Source: Sipunculus nudus
Lineage: Eukaryota > Annelida > Sipuncula > Golfingiida > Sipunculidae
Direction of reading: 5' to 3'
Assembly (NCBI GenBank): GCA_026874595.1
Contig: CM049315.1
Location: 73,103,401 to 73,167,400 of the forward strand
DNA length: 64,000 nt
Every line of letters starts with the position of its first letter. Positions within the stretch are counted from its first letter, which is position 1. The notes beneath the pieces were generated by a model that worked only from the letters and a program-made list of their open reading frames with translations, had not been told where the DNA came from and ran no database searches. Shown here one piece after another: positions 449-61,166 of the stretch. The translations under genes were made by a program, and so were the position numbers.

Positions 449-489
449 TGTTACGGGGTGACAAAAAAGCGGACCGAACTGTATCGCTA
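449..489 (+). mobile_element. 5' part of a 157-bp LTR (TRIM-like family), interrupted
   Basis: These 41 bases start TGTTACGGGGTGACA and align base-for-base in length with the first 41 bases of the intact LTR at 53187-53342. The rest of this LTR resumes at 9928-10043, after a 9.4-kb insertion. The split falls exactly at a TA dinucleotide (488-489, repeated at 9926-9927). No primer binding site follows the far end, so this copy looks like a solo LTR. Confidence 0.8.
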
Positions 490-9925: not shown

Positions 9926-9927
9926 TA

Positions 9928-10043
9928 GTGAAGTTTGCTTTGCTAGCGAAGCGGTTGGTACGCCGGACTTGTACGCCACCGACCTATGTTCGACTCCCGG
10001 ATCGGCCCAGGATTTTTCCCCTCAACAATTTGTCTTCGTAACA
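9928..10043 (+). mobile_element. 3' part of the interrupted LTR, with tRNA-like pol III boxes
   Basis: It matches 53228-53342. It contains a box A-like TAGCGAAGCGGTTGG and a degenerate box B (GTTCGACTCCC) about 35 bases later, and ends TTCGTAACA. See the intact copy at 53187-53342. Confidence 0.8.
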
Positions 10044-22806: not shown

Positions 22807-23330
22807 GTAAAAAAATAATTAAATTATACATGAAAACCCTTTAAGCAGTAAAACCTATACAGATTCTTTAGTAACTGCAATAGTATAGTTTACACGTTTT
22901 TCCAATAAAATCAACCTTCTTTACAGCTCAATCAGATATCTCTTACCCTGCTTCAAGTTGCATATCCATTTTAATTGCATATCCTCAAGAATCTTTGTGA
23001 TACCTCAGATATCAGTAATTATTGCAACTAAGCTCTAGCATGGTACAATCATCCTTTTATTTCATTAGTAATATTTTCATTTTACTGTTATTACCAGTAT
23101 TCTTGGTGATACCTCAAATCATATAGTTACTGGTACATAAATGCAGCAAGGCCCAGTATTTTCATTTAATTAGTATTTCAGGTTTTCTGTATTCTTGGTC
23201 ATATCTATATCTCAGTGAATGGTGGTTATTGAATGTGCCCCGGGACCCTGTCGCGGCTTTGAGGACAGCTCTCTTTCATGTGATTTCGGAAAATGAAAAC
23301 AGGTCACGAGCTTATTCCTTACACCAATCT
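22807..23330. other. Intergenic or intronic
   Basis: Low-complexity sequence with a recurring phrase ('attcttggtgatacctca' and variants at about 22990, 23100 and 23195). From about 23229 a frame runs into the triplicated unit; it may be a real exon fragment but has no clear splice sites. Confidence 0.35.
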
Positions 23331-23538
23331 TGGAGCTATATCACGGTCACAGCAACAGCACCGGCCGCGTCACAGGGACTTCGCAAGAGCAGAGAATGCA
23401 TCAAGTACCAGAGTCACTTGTGGGCTAAGTACTCGCCTAGATATGTTAGACCAAGGCTCCAAGAAGGCTACATTCATAAACCAATTACATGCAGTTATAC
23501 TTTGGCGAGGTGGATGCAGATTATCTGTAAGAAAATGT

Positions 23539-23596
<58 letters not shown>

Positions 23597-24251
23597 ACAG
23601 ATGTCCCTTTTATTGTGCAGCAGTCTTACATGTGTCTGTGTAGCGCTAGCATTGTCCGTTGCCATGGATTGGAGACGGCTGAGCTGGGCCGGCCCACGTG
23701 CGTACCCTGGCGTGTATAGACACAGCGCTCGTCTGGAAATTTCTGGGCTGTACGCGTGTCTTGTAATGTTCTTTCGACATGTGTATTATGTATTGTTGTT
23801 TTTTTTGGATTGTTCGTGAAATGGAAAGTTCTCGGCTGGAGGTGAAAAGTTATAAATAAGGGGCTGTGTTTAGAGCCGAGAGAGAAGAGAAAGAGAAATA
23901 ATCCAGCGGACACGGAAGAGTGTGAGTCAGTTTTGACCTATCCGATAAATGCAGTAGTTACAGGGATTCTGAGAACTCTGAGCTTTACTTTTGACTATCT
24001 GAACTGTTTACGTGGATTATTGGTTTTAAAGGACTTGTTGTAGCTGTGACAGTGGTGGTATCCAGGTACTGTACACTACATTTATTACACTGTGTAATTG
24101 TATTGATTTGCTGTTGTACTGTTGTCACTGTGTAATTGTATTGATTTAGTGTATTGTAATATTAGGATTGTTTTAAGAATAAATTAAATTTATTTGTTAA
24201 CAAAAAAACAATGACTTCTTTATTCATTCCCCTAGACATTTCACGCTGCCT
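23331..24251 (+). repeat. Tandem triplication, unit 1 (flank + (AT)n + LTR)
   Basis: The 921-bp unit has three parts: about 210 bp of non-LTR sequence starting TGGAGCTATATCACGGTC, an (AT)n tract (23543-23591), then LTR sequence from TGTTACAGATGTCCC (23593) to CACGCTGCC. The LTR part has a TATAAATA box and, further on, an AATAAA signal. The last part of the LTR is missing because the next unit starts there. Confidence 0.9.
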
Positions 24252-24458
24252 TGGAGCTATATCACGGTCACAGCAACAGCACCGGCCGCGTCACAGGGAC
24301 TTCGCAAGAGCAGAGAATGCATCAAGTACCAGAGTCACTTGTGGGCTAAGACTCGCCTAGATATGTTAGACCAAGGCTCCAAGAAGGCTACATTCATAAA
24401 CCAATTACATGCAGTTATACTTTGGCGAGGTGGATGCAGATTATCTGTAAGAAAATGT

Positions 24459-24510
<52 letters not shown>

Positions 24511-25166
24511 ACAGATGTCCCTTTCATTGTGCAGCAGTCTTACATGTGTCTGTGTAGCGCTAGCATTGTCCGTTGCCATGGATTGGAGACGGCTGAGCTG
24601 GGCCGGCCCACGTGCGTACCCTGGCGTGTATAGACACAGCGCTCGTCTGGAAATTTCTGGGCTGTACGCGTGTCTTGTAATGTTCTTTCGACATGTGTAT
24701 TATGTATTGTTGGTTTTTTTTGGATTGTTCGTGAAATGGAAAGTTCTCGGCTGGAGGTGAAAAGTTATAAATAAGGGGCTGTGTTTAGAGCCGAGAGAGA
24801 AGAGAAAGAGAAATATTCCAGCGGACACGGAAGAGTGTGAGTCAGTTTTGACCTATCCGATAAATGCAGTAGTTACAGGGATTCTGAGAACTCTGAGCTT
24901 TACTTTGGACTATCTGAACTGTTTACGTGGATTATTGGTTTTAAAGGACTTGTTGTAGCTGTGACAGTGGTGGTATCCAGGTACTGTACACTTCATTTAT
25001 TACACTGTGTAATTGTATTGATTTGCTGTTGTACTGTTGTCACTGTGTAATTGTATTGATTTAGTGTATTGTAATATTAGGATTGTTTTAAGAATAAATT
25101 AAATTTATTTGTTAACAAAAAAACACTGACTTCTTTATTCATTCCCCTAGACATTTCACGCTGCCT
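24252..25166 (+). repeat. Tandem triplication, unit 2
   Basis: A 915-bp copy, nearly identical to unit 1. The (AT)n tract is shorter (about 44 bases) and one 'ta' is missing near 24350 (reads 'aagactcgcc'), which breaks the frame found in units 1 and 3. The junction GCTGCC/TTGGAGC is the same as that to unit 3. Confidence 0.9.
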
Positions 25167-25374
25167 TGGAGCTATATCACGGTCACAGCAACAGCACCGG
25201 CCGCGTCACAGGGACTTCGCAAGAGCAGAGAATGCATCCAGTACCAGAGTCAATTGTGGGCTAAGTACTCGCCTAGATATGCTAGACCAAAGCTCCAAGA
25301 AGGCTGCATTCATAAACCAATTACATGCAGTTATACTTTTGCGAGGTGGATGCAGATTATCTGTAAGAAAATGT

Positions 25375-25432
<58 letters not shown>

Positions 25433-26150
25433 ACAGATGTCCCTTTTATTGTGCAGCAGTCTTACATGTGTCTGTGTAGCGCTAGCATTGTCCGTTGCCA
25501 TGGATTGGAGACGGCTGAGCTGGGCCGGCCCACGTGCGTACCCTGGCGTGTATAGACACAGCGCTCGTCTGGAAATTTCTGGGCTGTACGCGTGTCTTGT
25601 AATGTTCTTTCAACATGTGTATTATGTATTGATGGGTTCTTTGGGATTGTTCGTGAAATGGAAAGTTCTCGGCTGGAGGTGAAAAGTTATAAATAAGGGG
25701 CTGTGTTTAGAGCCGAGAGAGAAGAGAAAAAGAAATATTCCAGCGGACACGGAAGAGTGTGAGTAAGTTTTGACCTATCCGATAAGTGCAGTAGTTACAG
25801 GGATTCTGAGAACTCTGAGCTTTACTTTGGACTATCTGAACTGTTTACGTGGATTATTGGTTTTAAAGGACTTGTTGTCGCTGTGACAGTGGTGGTATCC
25901 AGGTACTTTACACTTCATTTATTACACTGTGTAATTGTATTGATTTGCTGTTGTACTGTTGTCACTGTGTTATTGTATTGATTTAGTGTATTGTAATATT
26001 AGGATTGTTTTAAGAATAAATTAAATTTATTTGTTAACAAAAAAACACTGACTTCTTTATTCATTCCCCTAGACATTTCACGCTGCCTAGTGTTACAGAA
26101 TCTGTTTTTTTTTCTATCTCCATAACAAACTTAATGCTCGTCACGACTAT
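25167..26150 (+). repeat. Tandem triplication, unit 3, continuing into the LTR end
   Basis: This unit runs past CTGCC into TAGTGTTACAGAATCTG and on for about 60 bp more. That tail is homologous to sequence after the same point in the LTRs at 37270-37905 and 60327-61166. So only this unit keeps the original 3' continuation, and the duplication breakpoints are CTGCC and TTGGAGC. Confidence 0.85.
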
Positions 26151-27915: not shown

Positions 27916-29895
27916 TCCGGGGGGGGGGGGGGGGGGGGGTCGGCCGGTACATCGTACCGGGGCCAAAAAGGGCCCGGGCTGGCGAAAAATAAAAAAGTTG
28001 GAAGTATGGAAGACTCATCTAAATTATTTATTTAAGTGACATATTGATCTTAATCCGGATTCCGGAGTGTAAAGAATGGGCCCGGCTGATTTTCGGGATT
28101 TTCACAGGAGCCTATATGTAATGCATGAACATTATATTTTTAACGTGTTTATTAAGTGGAACCAGTTGTTAAAGGGGACCCTATAGTGAAAATATTGTCC
28201 AATAAAAAGTTTATAAATGAAAATAAGGAAGACTTTCTTTTTTGCAATAACTTTTACATGTTTTGAATCAGGTAGGTCTGTGGGGCCCGGTCCACCAAGG
28301 AGTTGTATTAGGCCTGGGGACTATGTATATTTTATTTGTTTATCTGTTACATGGTTTCAATGAGGAGGATGTGAGGTGGCCTTTGGAGGCCAAAGGATTT
28401 ATCAGTCTAAAAATTACTTTAAATAGCAATTTCTTTTGGCTTGTGTGTATCTTTTTGTATGACTTTAATCATGCGGGACCGTTCAAAGGGGCCATAGTTT
28501 TCTGGGGAAGTTGGACTTAAATACATAAAAAATGGAAAATGTATAATTAGTTTTAAGTGTCATTCTGCTTTTAATCCAGACTGATCGCTGCGAAGTTTTT
28601 TTTTTTTTTTGGGGGGGGGAGGGGGTGTCAAAGGGGGCCCGGCCTGGTGAAAGTGTCTTAATTAAGGCCCAAAAAAAACTGGAAATAGGCCTATGGGGAG
28701 ACTTTTATATTTGAGATATATGTTTGAACAGCTTCTACAAAAAGGTCTTTCAGCAAATTGAACCTGATCAAGAATTTTTTAAGGACGACAATGGCACAAG
28801 GTCGTCTTGCTGATTTGCCAGATTGAGTCGAAACTTGCCCGATCAATTGATTTCGATCTTGTCATCAGAAACTTTTCACAAAGAAAGGCAAGAAAAGCCC
28901 ATTTTTAGCACAGCTGACGGTCAGCAATGCCAAGAATGGGCCTCGGTATAACAGCATACATATCATAACCGTCATTCCTTGATGCTATATGACTAATGAG
29001 CTCTCCTTGAAAATCTAAATTATATTTTAGCTGTATTGTTAACTATGAGTTATTACACGTTTACTATAATTGGTCCAATCTGAGTAAAACAATATTCACA
29101 ATCAGCAGTGATAATTTCTCTTTCAATGGCCTTGCAATTAATGTATTCATTATAATTGTGTTTGCCTACTTTTTAATATCGATGTAAGCAGATGTTGGCA
29201 CCTAAATTCAGTTGCTTTGATTAAAATGATTATGTAAACTCCTAAACTGCCATTTAGGTTTCTGAGTAAAAACACATCCACAGGCGCCTGTGGTTTGGTT
29301 ATTGTCCGCATGAAGTGTTTATTTAAAAGAAAGTACACTTCTTGTCAGCCTGTCACCAAACGAAATATGAAAACGATTCCTAATGCCCATTATACAGAAT
29401 TTATCCATAGATGACCAGGAACTTTTCCCGAAAAAAATTGCTAAAATTTCCCACAAGTGGCTGCACCAAGGGTCCAATGATATCTGTATGGACAGTTTAA
29501 TCGGCTAGGTTATACCGTATGTGGCCTCGACTACATTTCATGTTTCTATTTCTTTAAAGCTATGATACATATTGAAATTTATATCCACATTACCATTAAC
29601 TCCATATCCCCCATCACCATGCACTATTTGGATAATCAAACGGCTCTGTTATTTAGATCCTTAGACTCTTTTGGACATTTTGTATTTCTTTTCTATTTTC
29701 TTATGCGGTGCTTTCAATAAAATGTTCTCAGTTACGTGTCACAAATAAGGCAAATTGTGCTCATCAGCTCCACAATAGGCAATTGACCTATTGGTCACCT
29801 ATAATTTATTTTAATATGTGCCACGCATATTTTTAAATTTGATTTTCTCGGGTTTTTAATTACGTGTATTCCTATTTTCATAGTTTTTCAATATA

Positions 29896-29932
<37 letters not shown>

Positions 29933-29950
29933 GTGCTGGGAGGGGGCAGG
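27916..29950. other. 2-kb non-LINE block between the two LINE parts
   Basis: It starts with a G-run of about 20 bases and contains several GC-rich 'gggcccgg' phrases (27977, 28080, 28285, 28635), a second T-run/G-run at 28595, and an (AT)n plus (AAT)n tract at 29887-29931. No terminal inverted repeats or genes recognised. It may be an inserted element or the space between two separate LINE copies. Confidence 0.5.
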
Positions 29951-31885
29951 GCCGCAGGGGCTCGGCAACGTTTTTGTACCGCCTTAAAAGAATCCTCTCG
30001 GAGGCCCTGGCTGTAGTGAAAGCAGTCATTTATCAGCCTAAGAGACAATTCTACATGGATAAGATTGACTCCATTTCGTCATCAAAACAGCTGTTTTCTG
30101 TGTCTGGTGAGCTTCAGGGCAAGTCCCGGATTATACCTTTGCCAATTGATATACCTCGCTGTGACCTTCCGAAACGTTTCTGTGACTTTTTCTTGGCCAA
30201 GATTGAAGGTATCCGTCGGGAACTTGACTCTTGTGTATGTGAACCTCCTAATTTTGATATTTATGATGGTCCCACTATGTCCTGGTTTACACCAGGGACT
30301 GTTCAGGAGATACATGAACTTATAATGTCATCACCAACAAAAAGCTGTATACTTGATCCCTTCCATACTCCCCTTCTTAAGCAATGCATAGATGACCTTA
30401 CTCCATTGATTACATTCATTATAAATATCTCTCTATCAACAGGTACAGTCCCTTTTCAGTTTACAGAGGCTGTCCTGACCCCACTTTTGAAGAAGCTGGG
30501 ATTAGATCCAAATGACCTAAAACATTTTAGGCCAGTTTCAAACCTTCCCTTCGTTTATAAAATCCTTGAGAAGACTATTTTTAAAGAGGTTACAATGTCA
30601 TCTTTATGAAAATAGCTTAATGGAAATCCATCAGTCCGCGTGTAGAAGGCACCATATAGCACAGAGACCGCCGTACTGAGTGTCATGGATGTTCTACTGA
30701 TGGCGGCAGACGAGAGACTCGTTTCTCTCCTAGTATTGTTGGACCTCAGTGCAGCGTTTGACACGCTTGATCATTGCATTTTGCTTAAAAGACTAGAAAT
30801 TACCTTTGGTATACACGGCACCGCGCTTTCATGGTTTACTTCATACCTTGCCAATCGTTCCCAAGCTGTTATGGTCGACGGTAGAAAATCAGACCCATGT
30901 ACTTTGTTGTATGGGGTTCCCCAGGGATCCGTGTTAAGACCTATATTGTTCACTTTATATTCACAGCCCCTATCTCGCATAATATCCGCACATGATTGTT
31001 CTTTTCATAAGTATGCTGATGACACTGAACTGTCAAAATGTAGTCAACCAGGTGAGTTCAGCTATTTTTAGTTAAGCATACAAGCTTGTATTGAGGATAT
31101 ACTATCATGGATGACCAGCAACAAACTTAAATTGAATACTGACAAGACTGAAATTATGCCTGTCGGATCTAAACCCCTTCTAAGGATGACTCACAATGAG
31201 TTTATTAGCATTGGGGGCTGCACTGTTCCTTTACAAAATTCAGTGAAGTATCTAGGTGTTAAGATTGATCGTAATTTTTCAATGCATGATTATTTTAGTA
31301 GTTTATGTCGTGCGGCCTTTCTCGAGCTCCGCCGTATAGCTTCAATCCGGCGTTTCCTCTCTATTAATGCGTGTTGTCGGTTCATTTGCGCCACAGTAAT
31401 ATCTCGCCTGGATTACTGTAATTCAGTTCTTGCTGGGTTACCTGCAGAGCAAGTCTCGCGGCTACAGATGGTCCAGAGTAATGCTGCGCGTCTCATTCTT
31501 AAGAAGCGTAAGACCGACCACGTCACCCCGCTGCTCAAACGGCTTCCCGTCAAGTACCGCGTACAATACAAAATTGCTGTTTTTGTTTACCGCCGTATTG
31601 ATGACTCACTTTCATCATATTTGACTAAAAAAATAATAACCTAACGGCCTTTGCATACGCTGCCCTCGGCTGGCGGACATCTTCTTAAAGTACCAAAGTG
31701 TAATATGGAAATCGGTGAACGTTCCTTCCGTCTCATAGCCCCAAAAGTTTGGAATTCACTTCCCATTACACTTAGAAAATCTCCAACTCTTGTATCATTT
31801 AAAACTAATTGCAAGCTTTTTGTAATTAATATGCATCACTTTTTTTCTGGGTCAGGCACAGGGAGTAGATTTCAATGAAATTGTA
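29950..31885 (+). pseudogene. L2/CR1-type LINE reverse transcriptase and C-terminus (part B)
   Basis: The order of motifs is that of an L2-like non-LTR reverse transcriptase, which copies the element's RNA at the target site. SWFTPGTVQEIHELI comes first; then HFRPVSNLPF (about 30520-30550); LLDLSAAFDTLDH (about 30735-30775); GVPQGSVL (about 30916); catalytic YADD (about 31012-31023); then the thumb region with KYLGVKID and a C-terminal GERSFRLIAPKVWNSLP. The frame breaks near 30595-30680, with more than one shift, and in-frame stops occur at 31069 and 31642. The copy is therefore inactive. The catalytic aspartates are still present. Confidence 0.9.
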
Positions 31886-36664: not shown

Positions 36665-51293
<14,629 letters not shown>

Positions 51294-52999: not shown

Positions 53000-53081
53000 A
53001 GCGAGGTGTGCACGGAGCCTATGTGTGCCAGCGTATACAATCGGCCCAGTATTTTCCTCTGAGCAATTTGTCTTCGTAACA
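53000..53081 (+). mobile_element. Degraded left LTR of a TRIM-like element
   Basis: Its last 45 bases (TCGGCCCAGTATTTTCC to TCTTCGTAACA) match the end of the LTR at 53187-53342 with a few differences. The earlier part aligns only loosely and has lost the box B segment. Confidence 0.65.
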
Positions 53082-53084
53082 AAA

Positions 53085-53101
53085 TGGGGGCTCGTCCGGA
53101 T
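53085..53101 (+). other. Primer binding site, tRNA-Pro type
   Basis: TGGGGGCTCGTCCGGAT begins 3 bases after the LTR end. It equals the well-known tRNA-Pro primer site (TGGGGGCTCGTCCGGGAT) except for one missing G. Its position is what a retroelement needs to start minus-strand DNA synthesis. Confidence 0.75.
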
Positions 53102-53186
53102 TTGGCCCAGGGAATAAACTCACCAAAGTGTGACTCCTGGGATTATTAGTCTTGTTCTGAACGCAGAACGCTCTTAAGAGGGTGTA
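53102..53186 (+). mobile_element. TRIM-like internal region, non-coding
   Basis: Only 85 bases lie between the primer site and the right LTR. A short purine run (AAGAGGG, 53176-53182) just before the LTR may be the polypurine tract. No gag or pol, so this is a miniature, non-autonomous retroelement. Confidence 0.6.
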
Positions 53187-53342
53187 TGTTACGGGGTGAC
53201 ATATAGGCGGACCGAACTGTCACGCTAGTGAAGTTTGCTTTTCTAGCGAAGCGGTTGGAACGCCGGACATGTGCGCCACCGACATGGGTTCGAATCCCGA
53301 ATCGGCCCAGCATTTTCCCCTGAACAATATGTCTTCGTAACA
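53187..53342 (+). mobile_element. Right LTR of a TRIM-like element, with tRNA-like pol III boxes
   Basis: The 156-bp repeat starts TGTTACG and ends CGTAACA, a 7-bp terminal inversion as usual for LTRs. Inside are TAGCGAAGCGGTTGG (box A-like, about 53244) and GGTTCGAATCCC (a perfect box B core, about 53288), spaced as in tRNA genes. A second copy, split by the 9.4-kb element, lies at 449-10043. Alternatively this is a tRNA-derived SINE that happens to have inverted ends. The adjacent primer site and paired left copy favour an LTR. Confidence 0.72.
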
Positions 53343-55440
53343 ATATATGCCTGTACCCACATACACACACACTATGTTGCATATAGAATACTTCTGTTAG
53401 CTGTTTAACTAATTCTAGACAAGACACCTTTTGGGCACATGTCCAACCAATGGGCAACTGAGTCGAAAATGAGGAAACACAATGATTATAACACTTCCAC
53501 GAATGGGGGCCACCGATACGCTGTCGAATATTGGCATAGCGTGAGCACACGTAGACATCGATTTTAGCTTTGAGTCGATTCAAAACTTTTTTACGAATTG
53601 TTAAATTTCGTAGGCCATATGTAACTCTTAGAGTTACTCTGCAGGTGTGCTTGCAGGTGCTGAGTGCTCGACCGTGACCTGAAAAGATGGCCAGGCCACA
53701 CTGCGCGGAGCATGAGGCTGGACCTTTTCTGCATTCACTTATTTTTTGCCAAGATTCCAATGTTCATTCGTGCATTTGTAAATATTACTTGATAAAGCTC
53801 CTGAATGTGGAGAATATGCTTGTTCCACAATCCGAAATGCCCATTCCCGAAATGTCCTGAAAGTTTCATGAGAATCCGTGTGTAACTGCCCCCTACACGC
53901 TATTAATCGGAAACTTCACATAGTATATTCATATACGAATCCATTTTTTTCATAACCCGCCATTCCCGTTTAATTTCTCCAAGCTCTTTTGTGCGACTGT
54001 TTAAAAATTGAGCAGTTCAGACTAAATAATACCTAAAATATCTTCATACACATTATATTTGCGACACAGAGGAATATTCTTTGCTGGTAGGTACCCGGTA
54101 CACCTTACCCGGTGAAAGCGTGATTTCTCATTCTTAACATGGATAAACATAGTTTAGTCCGGTAGAAATTACACTCTAATGTAGTGTTTATGAATTCAGA
54201 TATTTTTATATGGAATGTTAACCACTCGAAAAACATATAATAAACCAGCCCATTCCCTGATAATTAAAAAGTAATTGCTTGATACACAAACCCGTATACT
54301 CATTGAATATTCATGTGCGCCCTCATATATATTTGCAGCTGCCTTAAGAATACCATCTCTATACTGCAGAATTTGCTTTACATCGATACAATTATCCGCA
54401 GTTACCACTACCAAATGACAGTAAATGAGCCCATGTAATCATCATAATTTATTTATTGTAACAATCAACTGATCTTTCTGACGTCAGGCAAGTTCTGCTG
54501 TTTCAAAGTAATCAAGAGCTCCTGCGAAAGAAAACCACTAATATGCTGGTTGGACACTCCTGAACCAGCTTTTGAACAGGTTCTTTGCACAAAAAATGCA
54601 TAACATTAAAAATGAATGAATAAAATAACATAATTTGTAAAAAAGAGGCTCTCATTCTTTATAATTATCAATAGATGTTCTTTCGCGTTTAAAAAATCAG
54701 TGTAAATTTACGTGCATATGGCCCCTTCAATCCTTAATATTGTGTGCCCATGGCCCCGCACCCAGCACTCGCACACATCCCGTAAGGCAATCACACACAA
54801 TCATTCCAGACTCGCACACTCGGTATGTTTAACAATGCCTCGCATACCTGCATGTAAATGTCCCAGAAAAAAATATGTAAATATGAAGCATATGGGCAAT
54901 GTATCGCTTGGTATGAAAATTAGAAAATTGAAATACAGTTCAAAATAGGTTGTGTTTCACACAATTTTGATATCTGATAAATCCACGAACACAGCCAGAC
55001 ACAAACAGTTCTAAAAAGCTCACGTTTCCACCAACACAGTGCTCAAGGTTAAGATAGAAGCATGTTTAATAGATCACTCTTGGTATGGAAATCTAAAACT
55101 GATAAAAATACACTGTTTGAACACAACCTTGATCTCTGGTATATCCAAGAAAATATGACCTCATCGGGAATTCACCCACGCATTATGCGACATTTACACA
55201 CTCATAGGATATTCACACACACGCTGTGTATATTATATTTTGATATTCTACTATAATAGGCAAAATGTGAATGTCCCATGTCCAGCGTGTGAACGTCATA
55301 TGAGCAGTGTATCTTACGGTCACTTAATATCTAACGCCCTTGTATAAGCTCGTCCATATTTTGCCAGTGAAATAACGTGAAGAATATAAGAATTTGACTC
55401 CGAGTGATGCAAACCTCTTTCACTCCTCATTTAAATAGTC
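53343..55440. other. Intergenic, nothing firm
   Basis: A 204-codon minus-strand frame (53760-53146) overlaps the LTR and shows no domain. The rest is AT-rich, with no splice-supported exon or repeat recognised. A short C-run lies at 55441-55448. Confidence 0.35.
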
Positions 55441-60326: not shown

Positions 60327-61166
60327 TTTTTACGGAACCTAATATAAACAGATTACGTATGCGTTATGAACACAAATTTTGTAATGGAGATAAAACAAAT
60401 CAGATTTTGTAACACTAGGCAGCGTGAAATGTCTAGGGGAATAAATAGGGAAGTCAGCGTTTTTTTTTGTTAACAAATAGCTATATTCTTAAAACAACTC
60501 TAACATTACAATACACTAAATAAATACAATTAAAAATACAGTAAAACAGCGGTATAACAACAAATCAATACAATCACACAGAAAAATAAACAATTTGCAC
60601 AGTACCTGGATACCACCACCGTCACAACAATAAGTTCTTTAAAATATCTATGTCGGATGAAAAGTCCACACCAATCCTCTCGGAGAATAACAGTCCAATG
60701 TAAAGCTCTTGTAACAATCAAGAAAGTAACTTGAGGCAGGCAGCATTAAATTGTATAGAGTTAGTAATAGCAAAATTCCTGAAATTACTGGATAATCGGA
60801 CAGGTCCCACAAACTGACATAATACGTCTGTGTCCGCTGGAATCTTCTCTCCTCTCTCTCGGCTCTAAAACACAGCCCCCTATTTATAACTTCTCGCCCC
60901 AAGCCGTGAATTTTCCACTTCTCGGGCAGTCTAAAGAATCCAATCCACAGTTAACACGCGTTACAGGAATCATCTAGAAAAACATCGCTGTGCCTCTACA
61001 TATTAGGGTTCACACGTGACCTCGGCCAGGCGAGAAAGCCCCACGCTAGCATGACAACGAGAGTTCAACCAGTACGGATTAAACATAGAGTGCAACAAGC
61101 GGCCCGGGGAGGGCGCCACAACACGAGTTACGCCCGTGTCATACAATAAAAAGAGCCCTTGTAACA
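60327..61166 (-). mobile_element. Solo LTR, about 840 bp, most complete copy of its family
   Basis: Read on the minus strand it starts TGTTACAAGGGCTCTTTTTA (61166) and ends GGTTCCGTAAAA (60327), where the copy at 37905 has GGTTCCGTAACA. It has a TATAAATA box (about 60889), the same 'GAGCCGAGAGAGA' and 'ATTCCAGCGGACAC' leader seen at 23.9 kb and 37.4 kb, and 'GCTGCCTAGTGTTACA' near the end. No retroelement genes on either side. Confidence 0.75.

Follow-up and report, generated by a model that had tools for sequence, protein, structure and literature searches.

Our analysis of the window, a stretch of 64,000 nucleotides from the genome of Sipunculus nudus, indicated that the element ending at position 53342 belongs to a known kind, Helenus, all of whose structural features examined were found in its family. 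Considered as a whole, the data are very probably best explained by a Helenus TRIM with a putative pol III promoter, a Gmr1-type helper, and a T-arm route to foldback elements, the window copy being a truncated descendant. As described in the cited parts of Kojima 2024 (PMC10886601), Helenus elements are protein-less TRIMs of less than ~1000 bp, in which two LTRs surround a short non-coding internal part. Part of the LTR derives from a tRNA, and a primer site and a purine tract are present; those of animals show 4-bp duplications and Gypsy-like primer sites, with tRNA-Pro among the primers in bivalves. Our family has in common with them the TRIM form, the LTR tRNA segment with boxes A and B, the tRNA-Pro primer site, and the polypurine tract, as well as 4-bp duplications, solo LTRs, arrays, and a degenerate tRNA (PMC10886601).

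The first-pass annotation had regarded the element as a possible animal analogue of Cassandra. What we found is indeed a TRIM of an animal whose LTR carries tRNA-type boxes, a kind already in print as Helenus (Kojima 2024, PMC10886601). Cassandra, a protein-less plant TRIM, likewise carries the promoter of a small RNA gene in its LTR and forms LTR-sharing arrays (PMC7215508), but it differs in its 5S rRNA promoter and its occurrence in plants; Rfam gave no 5S match in the window (gathering cut-off) or in locus L001 (E up to 1). The biv-TRIM of bivalves is also a TRIM, for which the cited part of PMC6934838 reports neither a clear primer site nor a tRNA promoter.

Anatomy of the window element and its duplicated unit

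All features of the element lie on the forward strand. The complete 3' LTR (53187..53342, 156 bp, TGTT...AACA) contains a box A-like motif (TAGCGAAGCGG, 53244..53254), a box B (GGTTCGAATCC, 53287..53297), and, downstream of the latter, a TTTT run (53313..53316) that might act as a weak pol III terminator. The TG...CA repeat with both boxes at tRNA-like spacing was therefore present as first annotated. The degraded partner LTR proposed upstream was also recovered, as 43 bp at 53039-53081 with 91% identity (47 nt and 89% in a second alignment). Because the direct alignment upstream of 53039 was not significant alone (p 0.03-0.08), the boundary was set at ~53021 by homology to copies on contig C2, giving a remnant of the 3' part of the 5' LTR at 53021..53081. 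The element, annotated as 53000-53342, accordingly keeps its extent from 53021 onward, and 53000-53020 lie outside it. The internal region (53082..53186) measured 105 bp, 87 bp of which follow the primer-site core, in place of the 85 bp given initially; it is 14 bp below the commonest length elsewhere, 119 bp. The primer site is situated 3 nt past the 5' LTR, where it had been placed, and its score needed correction from 17/18 to 16/18 ungapped (15 contiguous) against an 18-mer that we take to be the tRNA-Pro complement. Its core, TGGGGGCTCGTCCGG (53085..53099), complementary to the tRNA-Pro 3' CCA end, occurs a single time in the window, with ~6e-6 occurrences expected from base composition. 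A short polypurine tract, AAGAGGG (53176..53182), ends 4 nt upstream of the 3' LTR.

The window element is not an independent insertion, since the same flank and the same 5'-LTR deletion are found in a duplicated unit of contig C2. It matched nine C2 loci at 77-80 Mb, which occur in both orientations (L003-L008, L011, L012, and L017), from ~53021 (53080 for L006) through and beyond the element. The match past the element extended from 53650 to ~54250-54400 with 84-90% identity over 600-760 bp, so that the duplicated unit spans at least 1.4 kb (window 53021-54400). The window side upstream of 53021 had no match in the nine C2 loci; eight of the nine had left flanks that were 93-99% alike where aligned. 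Box B of the window 5' LTR was lost through a small deletion common to the C2 copies. Collectively, these comparisons indicate that one old insertion was multiplied within a larger genomic unit, of which the window carries a version cut at ~53021, a position taken to be the duplication breakpoint.

A second Helenus LTR on the forward strand of the window is split by an insert of ~9.4 kb into its start (LTR 1-41, 449..489) and its remainder (LTR 40-156, 9926..10043). The ends of the insert (CACTCTAAAA / TTTTAGAGTG) and the duplicated TA are as expected for a Tc1/mariner-like or similar DNA transposon. Elsewhere in the window, three adjacent open frames at 29884-31644 resemble, by eye, a broken non-LTR reverse transcriptase, and three near-identical tandem units of 915-922 bp, together with related stretches at other places, were observed among positions 23329-26112, 37274-37840, and 60327-60957.

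Family structure and the tRNA-like segment

A search of the genome (1.43 Gb, 153 contigs) with 53187-53342, as the first-pass annotation had envisaged, revealed the LTR to be a dispersed repeat, with 46 matches reported and 2774 first-look candidates, 40 of which were scored. The 40 loci fetched with the LTR, including the window, are thus the best-scored ones and not a random sample. LTR-internal-LTR pairs were present in 29/40 loci, an LTR with only an internal region in 4/40, and solo LTRs in 7/40; nine of the 29 pairs (the window and eight C2 loci) represent one duplicated insertion. Several loci contained at least three LTRs in a row, as LTR-sharing arrays. Pairs around 80-300 bp with the primer site had been anticipated, and the internals were 105-154 bp long in 30/31 junction pairs (47 bp in the other). 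The primer site matched at 13-18 of 18 positions in 29/31 internals, in full in one; the misses were one of two internals in L034 (6/18) and one of two in L039 (10/18). Polypurine ends such as AAGAGGGGGTG were seen by eye, uncounted, upstream of the 3' LTR in the internals inspected. Regarding assembly content, long intact COX1-family matches were observed on contigs C60, C61, C62, C66, C72, C74, C75, C89, and C123 (11 matches in total), with a COX1-family fragment on C5; C123 resembles, by eye, a bacterial cbb3 oxidase operon, so bacterial sequence, possibly of symbionts, seems to be part of the assembly; the nine matches on C60-C89 were provisionally assigned to bacteria by length.

Target duplications, anticipated at 4-6 bp, were found to be 4 bp long. 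Excluding nine loci with unreadable ends from the 40 left 31, and removal of seven C2 copies and three loci in TA tracts left 21 testable loci, among which the 4-bp duplication was exact in 10 (shuffle mean, 0.7) and had at most one mismatch in 18 (shuffle mean, 3.7). Exact duplications of 3, 5, and 6 bp numbered 0, 0, and 2 (shuffle mean for 6 bp, 0.1) in the same loci. Genome-wide, the junction of the last nine LTR bases with the primer site occurred exactly 187 times, and its backwards control did not occur. The first 30 junctions in contig order, some of them overlapping or duplicate, were read: an LTR spanning both boxes lay within the 3-kb locus in 28/30, and a direct LTR pair in 20/30, under an automatic rule that also admits some composites (L049, L057, and L067). 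LTR identity was 0.907 within elements and 0.896 between elements, in a set chosen for resemblance to a single query. The within-element value exceeded the outsiders' median in 15/25 pairs and the best outsider in 1/25, so LTR identity gave no clear signal of templated LTR renewal in these 25 pairs.

The tRNA-like segment of the LTR is a candidate pol III promoter, and pol III transcription of Helenus has been proposed (PMC10886601). The box A motif was kept in 60/68 LTRs and the strict box B motif in 50/68 (50/61 without the C2 5' LTRs), with TTTT downstream of box B in 65/68. Transcription would start near LTR position 40-45 and stop in the 3' LTR, yielding an RNA with short repeated ends, such as is reported for Cassandra in the introduction of PMC10886601. 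Non-CpG conservation across the 68 LTRs was 0.931 for box A, 0.853 for box B, and 0.923 for the remaining LTR; the weaker value of box B is due to the seven duplicated C2 5' LTRs with their common deletion. Without these, the boxes reached 0.939 and 0.938, compared with 0.937 for the remaining LTR, and are therefore not better kept than the rest. The folding of the LTR segment was no better than that of shuffles (z 0.26), and ARAGORN and Rfam reported no tRNA in the window, in line with the usually non-functional tRNA segment of Helenus. TTTT also occurred directly upstream of box A in 58/68 LTRs and within 10/31 internals, where it could end pol III transcription early.

These observations bear on two other readings. 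If the element were a TRIM transcribed by pol II, with the tRNA-like segment carried along passively since an old SINE insertion, the ordinary conservation of the boxes and the frequent TTTT before box A would be accounted for; the retention of box A and of the TTTT past box B in most LTRs argues against this, as does the recurrence of the same layout in animals, fungi, and one plant (PMC10886601), and we consider it unlikely, although a modest share of probability stays with it. A tRNA-headed SINE family merely resembling an LTR element would likewise explain boxes A and B at tRNA-like spacing, together with the 7/40 loci that are single copies. This has next to no probability: LTR pairs, a primer site adjoining the LTR, a polypurine tract, and duplications fixed at 4 bp are all present, and a tail was not seen in the flanks inspected. 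A SINE family was ruled out by the pairs, the primer site, and the duplications, and the 40 loci were not, for the most part, the single, tailed, tRNA-headed SINEs without a primer site that the first-pass annotation had named as the contrary outcome.

Gmr1-type elements as the candidate helper

A second LTR family uses the same primer site, matched at 18/18 in 7 of 12 loci inspected. Its LTR ends are TGTTACAGG...TTCCGTAACA, and 122 exact LTR/primer-site junctions were found, with none for the control. Pieces of open frames in this family encode a SCAN-domain gag (L099 and L095) and the zinc and C-terminal domains of integrase, followed by RT and RNase H; integrase then RT was found in L103, the same copy as L099, and in the same order in L088, a broken copy. 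An integrase upstream of RT is a mark of the Gmr1 clade (PMC6238403, PMC8220671), and, in the cited part of PMC4131045, SCAN is reported among frog LTR elements for Gmr elements only. Domain order and SCAN together point to a Gmr1-type Ty3/Gypsy family.

This Gmr1-type element is the likely helper of Helenus. The two are alike in their primer site and LTR ends (TGTTAC...GTAACA), and unlike in that the former codes for proteins and has an LTR of ~800 bp. Chimeras of Helenus and the Gmr1-type element were found, and the primer site and LTR ends are common to both. Helenus RNA would be packaged, with host tRNA-Pro as its primer, and Gmr1-type enzymes would carry out the integration. Whereas Kojima 2024 noted primer sites shared with Gypsy elements (PMC10886601), the helper is narrowed here to a Gmr1-type element; a link between TRIMs and Gmr1 was not found in the openly accessible literature, judged by title and the start of the abstract. 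In two loci, L013 (C9:53818325) and L088, a tRNA-Pro 3' end in reverse orientation lies between a Helenus LTR and a Gmr1-type 5' LTR, directly adjoining the latter.

Foldback elements and copied primer tRNA

A strict search pattern, in which the LTR end is joined to the primer site and the T-arm, occurred at 17 places in the genome, with none for the control; the pattern itself selects the T-arm seam, and other seams are outside its reach. With L080 assigned to primer read-through and L071/L072 and L082/L083 taken as duplicates, the 17 places correspond to 14 foldback events, in which the primer site continues unbroken into a reversed LTR at position 113. The seam had the same position in 16/17 pattern-selected loci, and the reversed arm extended to LTR position 1 in 9/14 events. 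The inverted form was also present in 7/30 junction loci, which had been chosen without reference to the T-arm seam. Outer ends, picked by eye, were readable in the nine foldbacks whose arm extends to position 1 and unreadable in five (L074, L077, L079, L085, and L087). Exact 4-bp duplications flanked seven of the nine (TGGC, ACAG, AGGA, ATAT, AACA, GGTA, and AAAG), the duplication of L081 matched at 3/4 bases, and L073 had no matching one. In a shuffle test of eight of the nine readable foldbacks (L073 excluded) plus L057, 8/9 matched, with a shuffle mean of 0.9. The donor LTR in L077 and L084 was that of the helper, joined to a Helenus acceptor arm.

The T-arm held in the Helenus LTR could allow an alternative annealing of strong-stop DNA. 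The plus-strand strong-stop DNA would end in the normal 18-nt copy of the primer site (...TCCGGGAT), and TCCGGGAT would sometimes anneal not to the minus-strand primer site but to ATCCCGGA in the LTR T-arm. Extension to the LTR start, or to the start of plus-strand DNA, would then give a molecule with two U3 ends, usable by integrase. The ATCCCGGA acceptor was intact in 29/68 LTRs and not intact in the window LTR. The similarity of foldbacks to their own arms was mixed (ranks 5, 25, 26, 57, 6, and 1 of 79), L076 being poorly aligned owing to its deletion; a single-RNA origin of each foldback is therefore not claimed.

Two loci, L057 and L080, contain tRNA-Pro sequence far past the primer site. 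The order in L080 is Helenus LTR, reverse tRNA-Pro copy, helper LTR, primer site, and internal part, with a tRNA body scoring 30.7 bits in Rfam (cut-off, 29) and a helper part ~89% alike over 1.5 kb; such an order would be expected if reverse transcription had switched templates between co-packaged molecules. In L057, a Helenus LTR is followed by 3 nt, a reverse copy of ~63 nt that includes the primer site and is tRNA-Pro-like by eye, and then LTR 83-156, all flanked by exact ATAC duplications. ARAGORN reported no tRNA in either locus, nor did Rfam (E 1) in L057. A copied tRNA-Pro body beside the primer site speaks for the primer more directly than complementarity by itself does. The CCA of the captured tRNA was dropped as proof of a mature tRNA, since those bases lie in the primer site itself. 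We located what we take to be the tRNA-Pro 3' half 17 times in the genome, as candidate genes only, and 14 of these are on contig C14. The 14 lie within C14:19081313-19319681, where 9/13 steps measure 3645-3647 bp, an arrangement suggestive of tRNA-Pro genes arrayed in tandem.

Foldbacks could also have arisen through events at the DNA level, such as inversions, nested insertions, recombination with tRNA genes, or gene conversion. Such an origin would suit the abundance of tandem and inverted composites, the duplication of the C2 copies at the DNA level, and the homology of the primer site to tRNA-Pro genes over 15-18 nt. The exact outer duplications of whole composites in 7/9 readable events are at odds with it, as are the constant seam, though pattern-selected, and the inverted join in junction loci not selected for the seam, and we judge DNA events improbable. 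In a further alternative, foldbacks would encode their own primer, since the inverted arm, read in reverse, gives LTR 1-113 with boxes A and B, the tRNA-Pro 3' end with CCA, and TTTT. The arm reaches LTR position 1, not the pol III start, in 9/14 events, L080 copied the tRNA body itself, and copies are few, which together render this highly improbable.

The T-arm route is our preferred reading of the foldbacks. We propose tentatively, as something plausible rather than probable, that the tRNA-like segment of Helenus serves reverse transcription in addition to transcription, the T-arm offering a second landing site for strong-stop DNA that repeatedly yields integrable two-U3 foldbacks, while primer read-through would be a SINE-free entry of tRNA into LTR elements. 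Foldbacks and copied primer tRNA, seen here, go unmentioned in the cited parts of Kojima 2024 (PMC10886601). No report of primer read-through or inverted-LTR elements was found by title and the start of the abstract; subscription journals were outside this search, so foldbacks may already be published. In HIV-1, methylated A58 has been described as a partial stop to primer-tRNA copying (PMC1785368). Our findings thus add a well-populated Helenus family and propose a specific helper lineage, Gmr1-type Ty3/Gypsy, and the composites may represent naturally formed end products of two reverse-transcription steps, the stop at tRNA nucleotide 58 and the plus-strand transfer.
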